Of a stretch of 54,009 nucleotides of DNA, positions 20,941-29,695 are shown one piece after another. The notes below the pieces were generated by a model, which was not told where the DNA came from, ran no database searches, and was given only the letters and a program-made list of their open reading frames with translations. The stretch's first letter is position 1. Each line of letters begins with the position of its first letter. Source of the DNA: Gemmatimonadota bacterium (lineage in GTDB: Bacteria > Gemmatimonadota > Gemmatimonadetes > Gemmatimonadales > GWC2-71-9); assembly GCA_022566515.1 (NCBI GenBank), contig JADFIT010000007.1, forward strand, positions 1 through 54,009. The letters run 5' to 3'. Both the position numbers and the translations under genes were made by a program.

Positions 20941-21525
20941 ATGCGGCGGGATTTGTGTCATATGTTGCTGCATACACGTTGCTTGGCATTGAACACGTCT
21001 TTTGAGCCGCTGACCCTCGTTCCGGTTCGGCGGGCCTTGCGGTTGGTTATCGACGGCAAGGCCGAGATCGTCGAGGTGGATAGGGGTCGGTTCTTCCGAA
21101 GCGAGCACCTGACCATTCCCAGGCCCAGTGTCATACGGTTGGTCAGATTCGTGCATGTTCCCCGCAAGTTCCGCCGTCAGGTCACCAACACGTTCCTCTT
21201 CGCCCGCGACCGGTACAGCTGTCAATACTGCGGTCGATCGGTTGCCCAGTTCCGCAGCAGGGAATGCCTGACCCGCGATCATCTCGTTCCCCTCTCGCGC
21301 GGCGGCACGAATGATTGGACGAACGTTACCACGTCGTGTTCGACTTGCAACACGAGGAAGGGAAACCGGCTTCCCCAAGAGTGCGGCATGCACCCACGTA
21401 TGACCCCGCACGAACCGTATTTCGTGCATCTGGCGTGGGCCGTACGGCGTCTTACGCCTATCCAGTCGAAATACATCAAGATGTTCTACGGTCGGGACAC
21501 TCTGGCCCAGATCTCTCGACTGTAG
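20941..21525 (+). CDS. HNH endonuclease family protein
   Basis: A 194-residue protein with the widespread small-HNH layout. The N-terminal domain reads CLALNTSFEPLTLVPVRRAL and LRLVIDGKAEIVE; then the metal-binding treble clef CQYCG, LTRDHLVPLSRGG (HNH His) and CSTCNTRKGNR. The second CxxC pair stabilises the fold. Start ATG 20941 or more likely ATG 20962 (MLLHTRC). Single-gene unit with its own promoter. The biological target is unknown for this conserved group; no methylase or defence partner is adjacent, so a restriction role is not supported. Confidence 0.88.
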   Translation: MRRDLCHMLLHTRCLALNTSFEPLTLVPVRRALRLVIDGKAEIVEVDRGRFFRSEHLTIPRPSVIRLVRFVHVPRKFRRQVTNTFLFARDRYSCQYCGRSVAQFRSRECLTRDHLVPLSRGGTNDWTNVTTSCSTCNTRKGNRLPQECGMHPRMTPHEPYFVHLAWAVRRLTPIQSKYIKMFYGRDTLAQISRL

Positions 21526-21610: not shown

Positions 21611-23224
21611 ATGTCCGCTATCTTACCAGATTATGATCCTTGTGACAGAGGAGATTTGGCAGCCTATCACCTAGCCGAACTCTTCGCCGAGCAGGCGGAG
21701 AAGAATCCCAGTCGAGAATGCCTCATTTTTGGCTTGCGGCGCATGACGTATGGCCAGGTGGACCAGGAAGCCAGGGCGTTACAGGCGGCGTTCAGCGACT
21801 TCGGCATCGAGGCGGGAGATTCCGTTGCCGTAGAACTCACCAACCGGCCGGAGTGGATCGTCTGTCTCCTGGCTGCCGCTCGATTGGGGGCTGTCGTTGT
21901 TCCCATCGACCCGTCAGTGAGTTACCACGAACTCAAGTACCAGCTGCGTCACGCTGAGGTGAGCCTGCTGGTGGTTGCCGAGTCAGATGAGCTAGATCCT
22001 CTCGAGGTGTTCGACGAGCTCATCGCGGAGTTGCCCGACCTCCACTACCTCATCACAGTCGGCGATGAGGATCGGTGGTACGACGACAGGGTTTTCCGGT
22101 TTCGCGATTTGGTATCGGGTGGCCGGCGAACGCCGCAGCCCATCGCAGAGCTGGATCCGGCGTCTGATCCCTTGGCGATCGTTTACACCTCGGGCACGAC
22201 GGGTAAGCCCAAGGGTGTCGTGCTGACGCATGAAAACCTGGTTCTGACAGCGATCCGAACCACAGAGGCGCTAGTGCCTGAGGAAGGCGAGGTAGTGCTA
22301 TGTGCCGTCCCGCTGTCAACGGTGTTTGGCACTCATATCGCCATCTCCACCCTGCTCATGGGGGCCACGCTGGTGCTGTTGGATCGCTTCAAGGCCAATG
22401 AGGCCCTGGCGGTGATCGAGCGCGAGCGGGTCACTATCTGTCACGGGGTGCCGACAATGTTCCAGCTCTTGATGCGCGACACATCATTCAAGAGTCGGGA
22501 TCTCTCTGCTGTCCGAACCGGCATCGTGGCCGGGAGCCCGGTCTCCGCGGACCTGGTGCGGCGAGTTCGGCAGTGGAATGACGTGCAGATCGCCTATGGC
22601 CTGACCGAGACTGGGCCGACTGTGACGATCACGCGTTTCGGGGATTCTCCCGAGGCGCGTGAAAGCACGGTGGGCCGGCCGATCGAGGGTGTCGACTTGA
22701 AGATTGTCGACATCAAGACGCAAGTCCTTCATGGGGCTGAGGCTGCTGGCGAACTCGCCGTAAAGGGACCGAACGTGATGTCGGGTTATTACCGCATGCC
22801 TTCGGAAACCGAGCGGTCGTTCACACCTGAAGGATACTTTCTCACCGGTGACCTTGCGGTCACGGATGAGGACGGGTTTGTGACGATCGTGGGCCGCCGC
22901 GCAGACATGATCATTCGCGGGGGCTACAACATTTATCCGCGCGAGCTGGAGGATGTCCTCCGCACGCATCCTGGTATCGACGAAGTCTGCGTGTTTGGTA
23001 TCCCCAACGAGATTCTAGGGGAACTCATTTGCGCCGGCATCGTCCCGGTCGAAGGCGCCATTGTCACGGGTGACGAGTTGAAGGAATTCGCCCGCGATCG
23101 AGTCGCCGATTACAAGGTCCCTGACATCGTCCGTTTCCTCGACAGCTTCCCGATGACCGGGAACGGGAAGGTGAAACGTATGGAACTGGCGGAGTTGGTG
23201 AGACTCGAGATGAGTACAAAGTGA
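21611..23224 (+). CDS. AMP-dependent acyl-CoA synthetase/ligase
   Basis: Activates a carboxylic acid to an acyl-adenylate and then to acyl-CoA. The 537-residue ANL enzyme shows the P-loop [19 protein letters not shown], the A5 YGLTETGPT, the A7 [17 protein letters not shown]8 [21 protein letters not shown] hinge, and the catalytic Lys in [10 protein letters not shown]. Length fits medium/long-chain fatty acyl-CoA ligases. SD-like GGGAGG lies upstream of ATG 21611. The stop overlaps the next gene as GTGA. The substrate is not predictable from these motifs. Confidence 0.92.
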
Positions 23225-25215
23225 ACGAAACGAACGAAACGTCTGAAGCGCCCCTGGTATCGCGCGCACCACTAAACACACGCAAGACCTCAGGTAACGC
23301 TGCCTTATTGATCGATTTTGACAATGTGACGATGGGGATTCGGTCGGATCTCCAGCACCAACTCAAGGAACTCCTCAATTCCGAGATTATCAAGGGCAAA
23401 GTGGCGGTGCAGCGCGCCTACGCTGATTGGCGTCGCTACCCACAGTATATCGTGCCACTCTCGGAATCCTCGATCGATCTCATCTTTGCGCCGGCGTTCG
23501 GATCGAACAAGAAGAACGCTACCGATATTCGCCTCGCCATCGACGCACTCGAACTCGTGTTCACACGGCCCGAAATCAACACCTTCATCTTGCTCTCGGG
23601 GGACAGCGATTTCTCGAGCCTCGTTCTCAAGCTCAAAGAGTACGGCAAGTGGGTCATCGGTGTCGGTATCCGAGAATCTGCCAGCGATCTGTTGGTGCAG
23701 AACTGTGACGAGTACTACAGTTACACGGAGCTTACCGGTTTCGCGAAGGAAGGCGAGACAGAAGTCATGCGGCGCGATCCATGGGAACTGGTGGTCGAAG
23801 CGACGCTCCGCATGAAGGAGAGCAATGACACGATGCGGTCGGATCGGCTCAAGCAGGTCATGCAGCAGCTCGATCCGCACTTCGACGAAAAAGATGCCGG
23901 GTTCAACCGGTTCGGCAAATTTGTGATCGAGGCACGTCGCCGCGGACTGCTGGAACTCGAGAAGATGGAGAGCGGCCAGTACCAGATAGACATTGGCCCG
24001 GATGCCAACGTTCCACCTGATAGTGTGATGCCGCCGGCTGGAGAGGAGGAGCCCCGAGAGGCGAAGCCGCAGAAGAAAAGCGGTGGCGACGCCAAGGGGC
24101 CGGCCCCGAGCGGAACGCTCACGTTGGCGGACGGCTTTGCGCTCTTGAAGCAGGTCTTGGTGGACTTGCAAGCGGTCGGCGAGAATTCAACGGATGCCAA
24201 GAAAGCTCGCGAGCGAATGACGGAGTTGGCAAGCGTTGCCGACGATCCGATCTTCGAGCCCAGACGCTTTAGCCGGATGCTGAGACAGGCTCGCGATGCC
24301 GGTATCATCGATCTCGTGAAAGACGGCAGGGTGTACCGGCTGAGGTTGAAGGCTGAAGAAGACGTGTCCGAACCGGAAGAGCGGCCGTCAAAGGGGCCAG
24401 AGCAGCCTGAGGAAACCACGGAGACGTCCCGACCGCGGGCCGAAGCCAAGGACGCAGAGCCGGCTGCCGTCGAGCAGTCGGATGCCAAGAGGAAGGTGGC
24501 GAAACGGTCTCTCCACAGCCGTGGAGGCAAGCGCTCGGGCAAGGTTGCCGAGATTCGCGAGGCTGCACCAGAGGGGGCCGCAGAGGCCCCTGCGGTCGAG
24601 GAGGTGCAACCACCCCAGGAATCCGGTCGTAGCGGTGAAGCGAAGCCGGCCCGGCGGTCGGTGAGGGGTCGCGGGAGTAGTCGTACGTACAACAAGCCCA
24701 AGACCACAACCACCGATCCGGTTCTTGAGGAGCCGACGCCGCAAGTGGAGCCGGTATTGCCCAGGGCAATCCCAACCGCGACGCGAAGGTCCATACGTGG
24801 ACGGGGTTCGAGCCGCCGGACGAAGCAGGCACCGATCCCCCATGGAGTTCCGCCCGAAGATAGGAGCACAGCTCGGGACAGGACTGAATCAGCAGGCCGC
24901 GAGAAGAAAGGTGCTGTCCGGCACTCACCACACAGAGGCGAGACGCAGGGGAGCGGCAGGCGGGACACCGATCTGGAGCGCGCGTCACGGAGTGACGCGA
25001 GGTCAAGATCTCGGGGCCGACGGCAGCCTACAGCCGGGCGCTCTGACGGGGATGCCCCTGGTGAGCAATCCCCCCAGGGCACACCTCGATCGTCCCGCGA
25101 GACAAAAGCCGCCTCGTCACTCATCGAGAAGCGTGCGGTTGACGAATCCGAAGGCGGCGGTGGCTTTTTCAAGCAGCTGCTACAGAGCTTTCGAGGAGAG
25201 GACAAAAACGAGTAG
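23221..25215 (+). CDS. NYN (LabA/DUF88) domain protein with OST-HTH domains and Arg/Gly-rich tail
   Basis: A 664-residue protein. Residues about 25-175 are a PIN-like NYN nuclease domain with its acidic residues in [23 protein letters not shown] and [12 protein letters not shown]. Residues about 180-262 form an OST-HTH/LOTUS winged helix ([29 protein letters not shown]) and residues about 300-380 a second one ([17 protein letters not shown]). The last 280 residues are low-complexity and basic, with four KRS/RRS...RG modules such as [11 protein letters not shown] and [11 protein letters not shown]. Domains of this sort act on RNA. GTG start overlaps the ligase stop. Confidence 0.9.
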
Positions 25216-25801
25216 TAACAGCAACCTTCCCCGCAAATTCTACGCGCGCGACACCGTAAGTGTCGCGCGCGATCTTTTGGGCTGCGTTCTGGAAACACGC
25301 ATTCGTGGTGCTGTGACGGCAGGGCGTATCGTCGAAGTCGAGGCCTATGTGGGCCCTCATGACCCCGCTTCGCACGGCGCCAACTGGCGCCGCACGGCGC
25401 GGACAGAACCCATGTACGGCGCTCCCGGAAGCGCGTACGTCTACAGGTCGTACGGGGTCCACTGGTGTTTCAATGTCGTAACGGAGCGTGACGATTATCC
25501 TGCGGCTGTGTTGGTGCGTGCACTGGAGCCCCTGCGGGGCATGAAGGTGATGTCGCGACGCCGGTCCCAAGACGATCTGCGGTTGCTCTGTTCCGGGCCG
25601 GGTCGGCTCACCCAAGCTCTCGGCATCACGGCTGCGTTGAACAGCGCTCGTCTGGATGGTGCACGGATCTGCATCAAACAGGGAACGCTGCTATCGGAGG
25701 AAGAGGTGGGATCGGGGCCACGGGTGGGGATCTCGCGTGCGACGGACTGGCCGCTCCGTTTCTTCGTAGAAGGCTCTCGGTGGCTTTCCCGCCGTGGGTG
25801 A
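25160..25801 (+). CDS. 3-methyladenine DNA glycosylase (MPG/AAG family)
   Basis: Excises alkylated purines from DNA. Family motifs run LPRKFYARDTVSVARDLLG, IVEVEAYVGPHDPASH (catalytic Glu region), the Tyr-containing GSAYVYRSYGVHWCFNVV, AVLVRALEPL, and SGPGRLTQALGI. The homologous part begins at about 25220, right after the NYN gene stop, yet no ATG/GTG/TTG is in frame there. The nearest standard start is GTG 25160, inside the NYN gene, which I used. An ACG at 25208, 5-7 bases after a GGAGAGG Shine-Dalgarno sequence, is an alternative. The protein is otherwise full length. Confidence 0.88.
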   Translation: MAFSSSCYRAFEERTKTSSNSNLPRKFYARDTVSVARDLLGCVLETRIRGAVTAGRIVEVEAYVGPHDPASHGANWRRTARTEPMYGAPGSAYVYRSYGVHWCFNVVTERDDYPAAVLVRALEPLRGMKVMSRRRSQDDLRLLCSGPGRLTQALGITAALNSARLDGARICIKQGTLLSEEEVGSGPRVGISRATDWPLRFFVEGSRWLSRRG

Positions 25802-29506: not shown

Positions 29507-29695
29507 ATGGCAGCTAAGCGAAGGGCCAAGAAGGCCACCAAGCGCAAGGCAACCAAGCGCAAGGCGCCAAAACGCAAGGCGACCAAGCGCAAGGCAACCA
29601 AGCGCAAGGCGCCCAAACGCAAGGCAACCAAGCGCAAGGCCACCAAGCGGCGTAAAGCCGCGAAGAAAACGACGAAGCCGAAGCGTCGTCGTTAG
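29507..29695 (+). CDS. H1-like lysine/arginine-rich repeat DNA-binding protein
   Basis: A 62-residue product that is almost entirely Lys, Arg, Ala, Thr and Pro, built of KRKAT/KRKAP pentapeptides (at least seven consecutive copies, e.g. ATKRKATKRKAPKRKATKRK) and ending KKTTKPKRRR. This composition resembles eukaryotic histone H1 tails and bacterial HctB/AlgP-type proteins that compact DNA. The coding sequence is therefore a near-perfect 15-bp tandem repeat (about 29535-29650), prone to length change by slippage. SD GGGAGGAG lies 5-6 bp before ATG. A strong hairpin terminator follows. Nucleoid role is inferred from composition. Confidence 0.85.
   Translation: MAAKRRAKKATKRKATKRKAPKRKATKRKATKRKAPKRKATKRKATKRRKAAKKTTKPKRRR

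Follow-up and report, generated by a model that had tools for sequence, protein, structure and literature searches.

Nearly all bacterial OST-HTH domains are found in proteins built around an LK nuclease (DUF88/NYN) domain, in which an N-terminal nuclease is followed by a single or duplicated OST-HTH (Anantharaman et al. 2010, PMC2848206). The gene considered here belongs to this kind, which has been described in bacteria since 2010. It lies at 23221..25215 on the forward strand of positions 1 to 54,009 of contig JADFIT010000007.1 (assembly GCA_022566515.1), a stretch of 54,009 nucleotides (nt) from a Gemmatimonadota bacterium of the lineage GWC2-71-9 that is referred to below as the window. 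The intact open reading frame (ORF) starts at GTG and encodes a protein of 664 amino acids (aa) with an NYN domain, two OST-HTH (LOTUS) winged helices and a long, arginine-rich and predicted disordered tail. A core gene of Gemmatimonadota, a long tail, RG-Ser modules, a terminal helix and helix-hairpin-helix (HhH) ends all go unmentioned in the abstract and sections 4-5 of PMC2848206, the figure of which omits non-globular regions. What is new here is the distribution of the core across a whole class, and the tail with its modules and clade-specific ends.

The same layout of an NYN domain and two LOTUS domains is described for Arabidopsis DNE1, and human MARF1 (limkain b1) likewise joins an NYN nuclease to LOTUS domains (PMC6294520, PMC10226599). 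According to the same accounts, the 172 C-terminal residues of MARF1 recruit partners and, unlike the window protein, MARF1 carries RNA recognition motifs, has as many as eight LOTUS domains and interacts with decapping factors that are absent from bacteria. Two LOTUS domains combined with disordered regions are also found in MIP-1 and MIP-2 of C. elegans, which are eukaryotic germ-granule proteins for which the opening of the abstract names no nuclease domain (PMC8331183). Both the germ-granule LOTUS domain and the mRNA-decay enzymes MARF1 and DNE1 have bacterial relatives. Searches for bacterial NYN-LOTUS function and for Gemmatimonadota NYN proteins among open-licence articles in PubMed Central turned up no study of the function of any bacterial NYN-LOTUS protein, and none of the window protein; a near-universal gene of one class with a strongly conserved core is a good place to ask what such proteins do.

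As regards the tail, the closest parallel is the noncatalytic region of RNase E, a fast-evolving disordered extension of an endoribonuclease in which short motifs are kept (PMC4435900, PMC11964227). Among these motifs are Arg-rich microdomains that bind RNA and a membrane-targeting amphipathic helix (PMC4435900), and in Pseudomonas aeruginosa both RNA binding and the formation of foci depend on the Arg motifs (PMC11964227). The window protein likewise keeps short Arg-rich motifs within a predicted disordered region. It differs from RNase E in its unrelated catalytic domain (profile searches matched no RNase E/G catalytic family on it) and in the order of its elements, with the helix at the very end. 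Moreover, the window protein has no known degradosome partner, and its helix resembles that of RNase E weakly.

The nuclease and winged-helix core

On profile evidence the identity of the N-terminal domain is certain: residues 27-167 (23299..23721, forward strand) match the NYN / LK nuclease family (Pfam PF01936, E 2.9e-26). In the alignment of 57 homologues that was used for invariant columns and Pfam counts, PF01936 matches every protein, and D32, D69, D102 and D128 are invariant in all 57. The intervals between these aspartates (37/33/26) are close to those between D178, D215, D246 and D272 of MARF1 (37/31/26), a comparison made by spacing and not by residue alignment; the four MARF1 residues are required for cleavage (PMC10226599).

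The first winged helix occupies residues 187-258 (23779..23994, forward strand) and the second residues 302-376 (24124..24348, forward strand). With PF12872 (OST-HTH), 51 of the 57 homologues give a match at E<=0.05, the best of them with an E of 3.2e-13, and the orthologue matches map to residues 194-254 and 324-371, respectively. AlphaFold2 builds the two winged helices with an identical H-H-H-E-E order and a predicted local distance difference test (pLDDT) score mostly of 91-97 (about 95 for the first and 96 for the second). It is on these orthologue matches and on this topology, rather than on the Pfam result of the window protein itself, that the call of two OST-HTH domains is based. AlphaFold2 models the NYN domain poorly (pLDDT mostly 33-63 over residues 1-180, from a shallow and near-invariant alignment), and structural searches return generic winged helices, so that the identity of the NYN and OST-HTH domains rests on the sequence profiles. 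In Foldseek, the LOTUS domain of human TDRD7 (3rco) appears among many winged helices (E 0.078), a match which is consistent but not specific. A crystal structure of a DUF88/LK-nuclease domain, 2qip, was another weak match, both in a separate search (E 0.00036) and in Foldseek. An earlier note, made from the letters of the window, had proposed an NYN nuclease fused to two OST-HTH domains, with repeated RG modules in a tail of about 280 residues, and had called it a likely RNase with RNA-binding winged helices. The architecture stands, borne out by the ORF, the profiles, the AlphaFold2 model and two copies of an RRS[VI]RGRGSSR module, and the RNase call is supported by the domain identity and the four invariant aspartates at MARF1-like spacing, from which the activity is predicted.

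The core was found in 277 of 297 sampled genomes of the phylum and in 108 of 119 genera, including all four genomes of the genus, with an identity over the core typically of 60-75% among the matches listed. Of the 20 genomes without a core match, 14 fall in the protein's own class and the other six are all those sampled from the sister class. Since the core is present in 277/297 genomes of the phylum and in 0/6 of the sister class, the gene has the look of a class-specific core gene within Gemmatimonadota, neither mobile nor devoted to defence. It is present as one copy in its own genome (G000; 3.59 Mb, 241 contigs). A scan of genome contigs gave 317 confirmed matches, the 80 best of which carry the L-numbers used below; 78 of these 80 belong to Gemmatimonadota groups, while L037 is labelled "bacterium" and L063 is Candidatus Kutchimonas, listed under Gemmatimonadota. 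More distant relatives occur on plasmids of Burkholderiales (Eleftheria terrae, Caballeronia). These proteins share 34-38% identity over the NYN domain and the first winged helix and have basic, low-complexity C-termini; unlike the window protein, they are 391-497 aa long, their match stops before the second winged helix, and they are without the RRS[VI]RGRGSSR module.

The arginine-rich tail, its modules and its ends

The tail spans residues 380-664 (24358..25212, forward strand). It is predicted to be disordered (pLDDT mostly below 50), contains 14.4% Arg, and has a net charge of +11 against -8 for the core. Its 285 residues compare with a median of 214 in the 78 full-length proteins, including that of the window, on which the tail comparisons are based; L023 has no tail within its open frame. 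In blocks along these proteins the consensus is 65-97% over residues 21-260 and 40-47% over residues 281-380, which include the second winged helix, and falls to 0-37% beyond residue 380. Even within the genus the tail can hardly be aligned: across the three congeners of the window protein, identity at aligned tail positions takes values of 28%, 30% and 44%, as against 91-93% in the NYN domain. The idea that the tail as a whole is under selection was accordingly rejected, and only the modules and the terminal helix stand out.

Two copies of the module, both of the form RRS[VI]RGRGSSR, lie at residues 478-488 (24652..24684, forward strand) and 522-532 (24784..24816, forward strand), and a degenerate one at residues 428-438 (24502..24534, forward strand) aligns with RSPRGRGGRRP of the congener L082. 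The two regular copies are alike in 10 of 11 residues and differ in all 11 codons. This rules out a recent duplication of the DNA and argues for selection on the peptide. The 7-aa RGRGSSR is the longest exact repeat of the tail, a length reached in 2 of 2000 composition shuffles. Copies fitting RS[VIL]RGRGSSR are confined to the genus (two each in the window protein and its congeners L082 and L084, one in the congener L002 and none in the other 74 proteins), and in several motif copies the Ser is replaced by Gly or Ala. Elsewhere in the genome the module finds no support, as a degenerate pattern hits three places, two of them in the NYN gene, against seven for the reversed-pattern control.

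Beyond the genus, a wider motif, RGPRFRRGSRGG (approximately RxxRxRRGSRG), was obtained by expectation maximisation on 26 representative tails (<75% core identity), with a log-likelihood ratio of 264 versus 122.7 +/- 4.7 in shuffled tails. A run on unmasked tails, which failed to keep the terminal helix and the HhH motif apart, was set aside. The per-tail p-values (p<=0.01 in 65 of 77 tails) are partly circular because 26 of those 77 tails trained the motif, and the fair test is given by held-out runs. When trained on 13 own-clade tails from outside the genus, the motif is recovered in all 19 tails of the sister, RGG-rich clade (p<=0.01), in 8 of 15 HhH tails (p<=0.05) and in three of the four members of the genus (p<=0.05); training on 16 tails from outside the clade recovers it in 15 of 17 clade tails (p<=0.05). 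The best-scoring place in L002 and L082 is not always the RGRGSSR module. Together, the held-out motif and the modules of the congeners show an RG-Ser short linear motif that is kept within an otherwise scrambled region. An RxxRxRRGSRG-like motif recurs over most of the class and, to judge from these comparisons, the modules are kept by selection in a fast-evolving tail.

The tail ends differ by clade. Among the 78 proteins, 16 (the window clade) end in an amphipathic helix, 19 end in SFWSKVKRGL after RGG arrays, 15 carry an HhH-like domain and 21 are Lys/Ala/Arg-rich, with six of other kinds and one missing; these types were assigned by hand-written motif patterns and the counts are descriptive. 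Mapped onto a maximum-likelihood tree built from the core, the labels require 9 changes, versus 46 in shuffles, and the HhH group forms one side of a single branch (support 100/99). The HhH-like domain (Y-x-GVG-x-[KR]TA) occurs in L041, L043, L046, L048, L051, L053, L056, L057, L060, L061, L063, L066, L068, L078 and L081. AlphaFold2 gives it a confident fold (mean pLDDT 86.7) that weakly resembles RuvA, Hel308 and topoisomerase V (all E above 1), and Pfam HHH_5 matches 3 of the 57 homologues. A second peptide, PEIPKIGVVEVDPNF or PPELLSVGVVE, is present in tails of RGG-clade proteins (L012-L014, for example) and of Gemmatimonadaceae proteins (L042-L047, for example), and looks like a candidate partner-docking motif; in the form (LLS/IPK)xGVVE it is common to the RGG and Lys/Ala clades and, by a loose pattern, is met in 2 of 16 own-clade tails. 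Conserved motifs in a scrambled tail, with four types of end in four clades, amount to a natural experiment in which the evolution of disordered scaffolds of RNA enzymes can be studied outside RNase E.

In the window protein the end is an amphipathic-helix-like peptide (residues 646-664; 25156..25212, forward strand), with an AlphaFold2 helix at 650-656. Its hydrophobic moment has a shuffle p of 0.045 in a 14-residue test over the whole tail and of 0.19 over the last 45 residues. In the own clade, the whole-tail test gives p<=0.05 in 15 of 16 tails, and the test on the last 45 residues is mostly non-significant (5 of 15 tails at p<=0.05). The median moment of the own-clade helices, 0.59, compares with 0.64 for the membrane-targeting helix of E. 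coli RNase E, residues 565-582 of that enzyme (PMC4435900). When ten terminal peptides were aligned with the RNase E helix, six of eight from the own clade scored at p<=0.05 (L084, p 0.056), and two SFWSKVKRGL members gave p 0.13 and 0.07. The likeness to RNase E is a lead, drawn from sequence, rather than a demonstration.

Two earlier statements on the tail hold in part. Its description as a eukaryotic-like RG-rich tail is a loose fit, with 8 RG dipeptides where 3.9 are expected (P 0.026, shuffles) and one RGG; it is the tails of the sister clade that carry RGG arrays, with up to 22 RG and up to 12 RGG. The outcome that the earlier note named as refuting it, a tail without conservation even among congeneric strains, is half borne out: the tail as a whole is poorly conserved, but the RG module is found in 4/4, and the FK-type C-terminal helix is kept in all four.

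Proposed function, competing readings and gene neighbourhood

We lean, with some caution, towards the window protein being a housekeeping, MARF1/limkain-b1-like endoribonuclease of one Gemmatimonadota class, the tail of which serves as an accessory scaffold for RNA binding and localisation. The NYN domain would cut RNA by means of metal ions held by the conserved aspartates, and the OST-HTH domains would serve in the choice of RNA. The repeated Arg/Gly/Ser short linear motifs may add multivalent binding of RNA, or of a partner, and in the own clade the terminal amphipathic helix may localise the enzyme or recruit a partner, possibly at the membrane; the short motifs and the helix suggest that the tail holds RNA or places the enzyme in the cell. 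The LOTUS domains of human MARF1 bind G-rich and quadruplex RNA (PMC10226599, citing Ding et al. 2020), and many of the proteins that bind quadruplexes contain RGG motifs (PMC8191793); a joint preference of LOTUS domains and tail for G-rich RNA is therefore a guess by analogy. By a similar analogy, the formation of granules, as with germ-granule LOTUS proteins (PMC8331183), is plausible.

Several observations weigh against this account or narrow it. At E<=0.1, Pfam OST-HTH does not match the window protein itself. The terminal peptide of the window protein bears no resemblance beyond chance to the RNase E helix (p 0.23), and the clade consensus aligns just as well (score 25) with an unrelated segment of RNase E around residues 133-157. 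A significant amphipathic helix is present in 1 of 21 Lys/Ala-rich tails, so that helix-based localisation cannot be a role common to the class. The class does not lack an initiating RNase, as both RNase E/G (96 of 99 genomes of the class; contig C185 of the own genome) and RNase Y (58 of 60 genomes over the cut-off) are encoded, which also rules out the NYN protein as a stand-in for a missing one. Finally, synteny with a DNA glycosylase gene hints that DNA may be involved besides RNA.

The RNase E/G open frames of the class are 504-715 aa long, versus 1061 aa for E. coli rne, a difference that is compatible with a scaffold role for the NYN protein but does not demonstrate one. A bolder extension, which we regard as rather unlikely, is a second RNA-decay platform, independent of RNase E, in which the RG-Ser tail and membrane helix of a MARF1-like nuclease would bring RNA together with partners, either at the membrane or in condensates, the NYN-LOTUS core being fixed and the tail ends swapped between clades. 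If true, such a platform would be a bacterial counterpart of LOTUS-domain ribonucleoprotein granules that arose independently of RNase E bodies.

Among the alternatives, a role in repair, with the protein acting on DNA or on RNA:DNA hybrids and its basic tail binding DNA, draws on the gene downstream. This gene, for a 3-methyladenine DNA glycosylase (mpg; 25160..25801, forward strand; Pfam Pur_DNA_glyco 4.4e-64), follows the NYN-OST-HTH gene in 64 of 70 assessable loci across the class. The HhH-like domain of 15 of the 78 tails, with its weak likeness to RuvA, Hel308 and topoisomerase V, the histone-H1-like, Lys/Ala-rich tails of 21 of the 78, and one weak HC2 match, would fit the same role. 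However, other neighbours are also kept, and the gene order may therefore reflect general synteny; to our knowledge, no functional link exists between the two genes. Moreover, NYN-OST-HTH relatives studied to date cut RNA (PMC6294520, PMC10226599), and we consider a repair role unlikely.

It is distinctly unlikely, in our estimation, that an ordinary bacterial NYN-OST-HTH RNase simply bears a low-complexity tail under little constraint, in which nothing counts but the net positive charge and the modules serve no particular function. The low tail identity even among congeners, the different ends in different clades, the tail-less frame of L023 and the modest RG enrichment, when the window tail is taken alone, are all in line with such a tail, but the modules are kept although all their codons differ, and the motif lies far above composition shuffles and is found in held-out clades. 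A third possibility is that the R-x-x-[ST] modules are phosphosites of a bacterial Ser/Thr kinase, which would switch the charge of the tail and its affinity for RNA. A basophilic kinase consensus would suit this motif, and the Ser after RG or RRG is kept in most of the class. Several copies, however, have Gly or Ala instead, and we consider the proposal very unlikely. A phage-defence or toxin RNase, to which the occurrence of NYN domains in conflict systems and matches of the protein to PHROGs families of unknown function could point, is extremely improbable for a near-universal core gene of the class with conserved gene order and no PADLOC family matched at E<=0.01.

The neighbourhood described in the earlier note is largely as stated there. 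The gene is coupled upstream to that of an AMP-forming acyl-CoA ligase (21611..23224, forward strand; Pfam AMP-binding 8.4e-93), the stop of which holds the GTG start of the NYN gene in a 4-nt overlap; the ligase gene precedes the NYN gene in 38 of the 70 loci. The overlap by the glycosylase gene holds if translation begins at GTG 25160, the first standard start met in frame when reading back from its conserved region, in which case it probably amounts to 56 nt. An HNH endonuclease gene (20941-21525, forward strand; Pfam HNH 5.2e-15) is kept close to the ligase gene by several of the loci most similar to that of the window (L002, L003, L006, L007, L008). Farther downstream, at 29507-29695 on the forward strand, a 62-aa ORF consists almost entirely of K-A-T/P-K-R pentapeptide repeats, underlain by a 15-bp tandem repeat of 7.9 copies (29531-29649), and resembles a histone-H1/HC2-type nucleoid protein.

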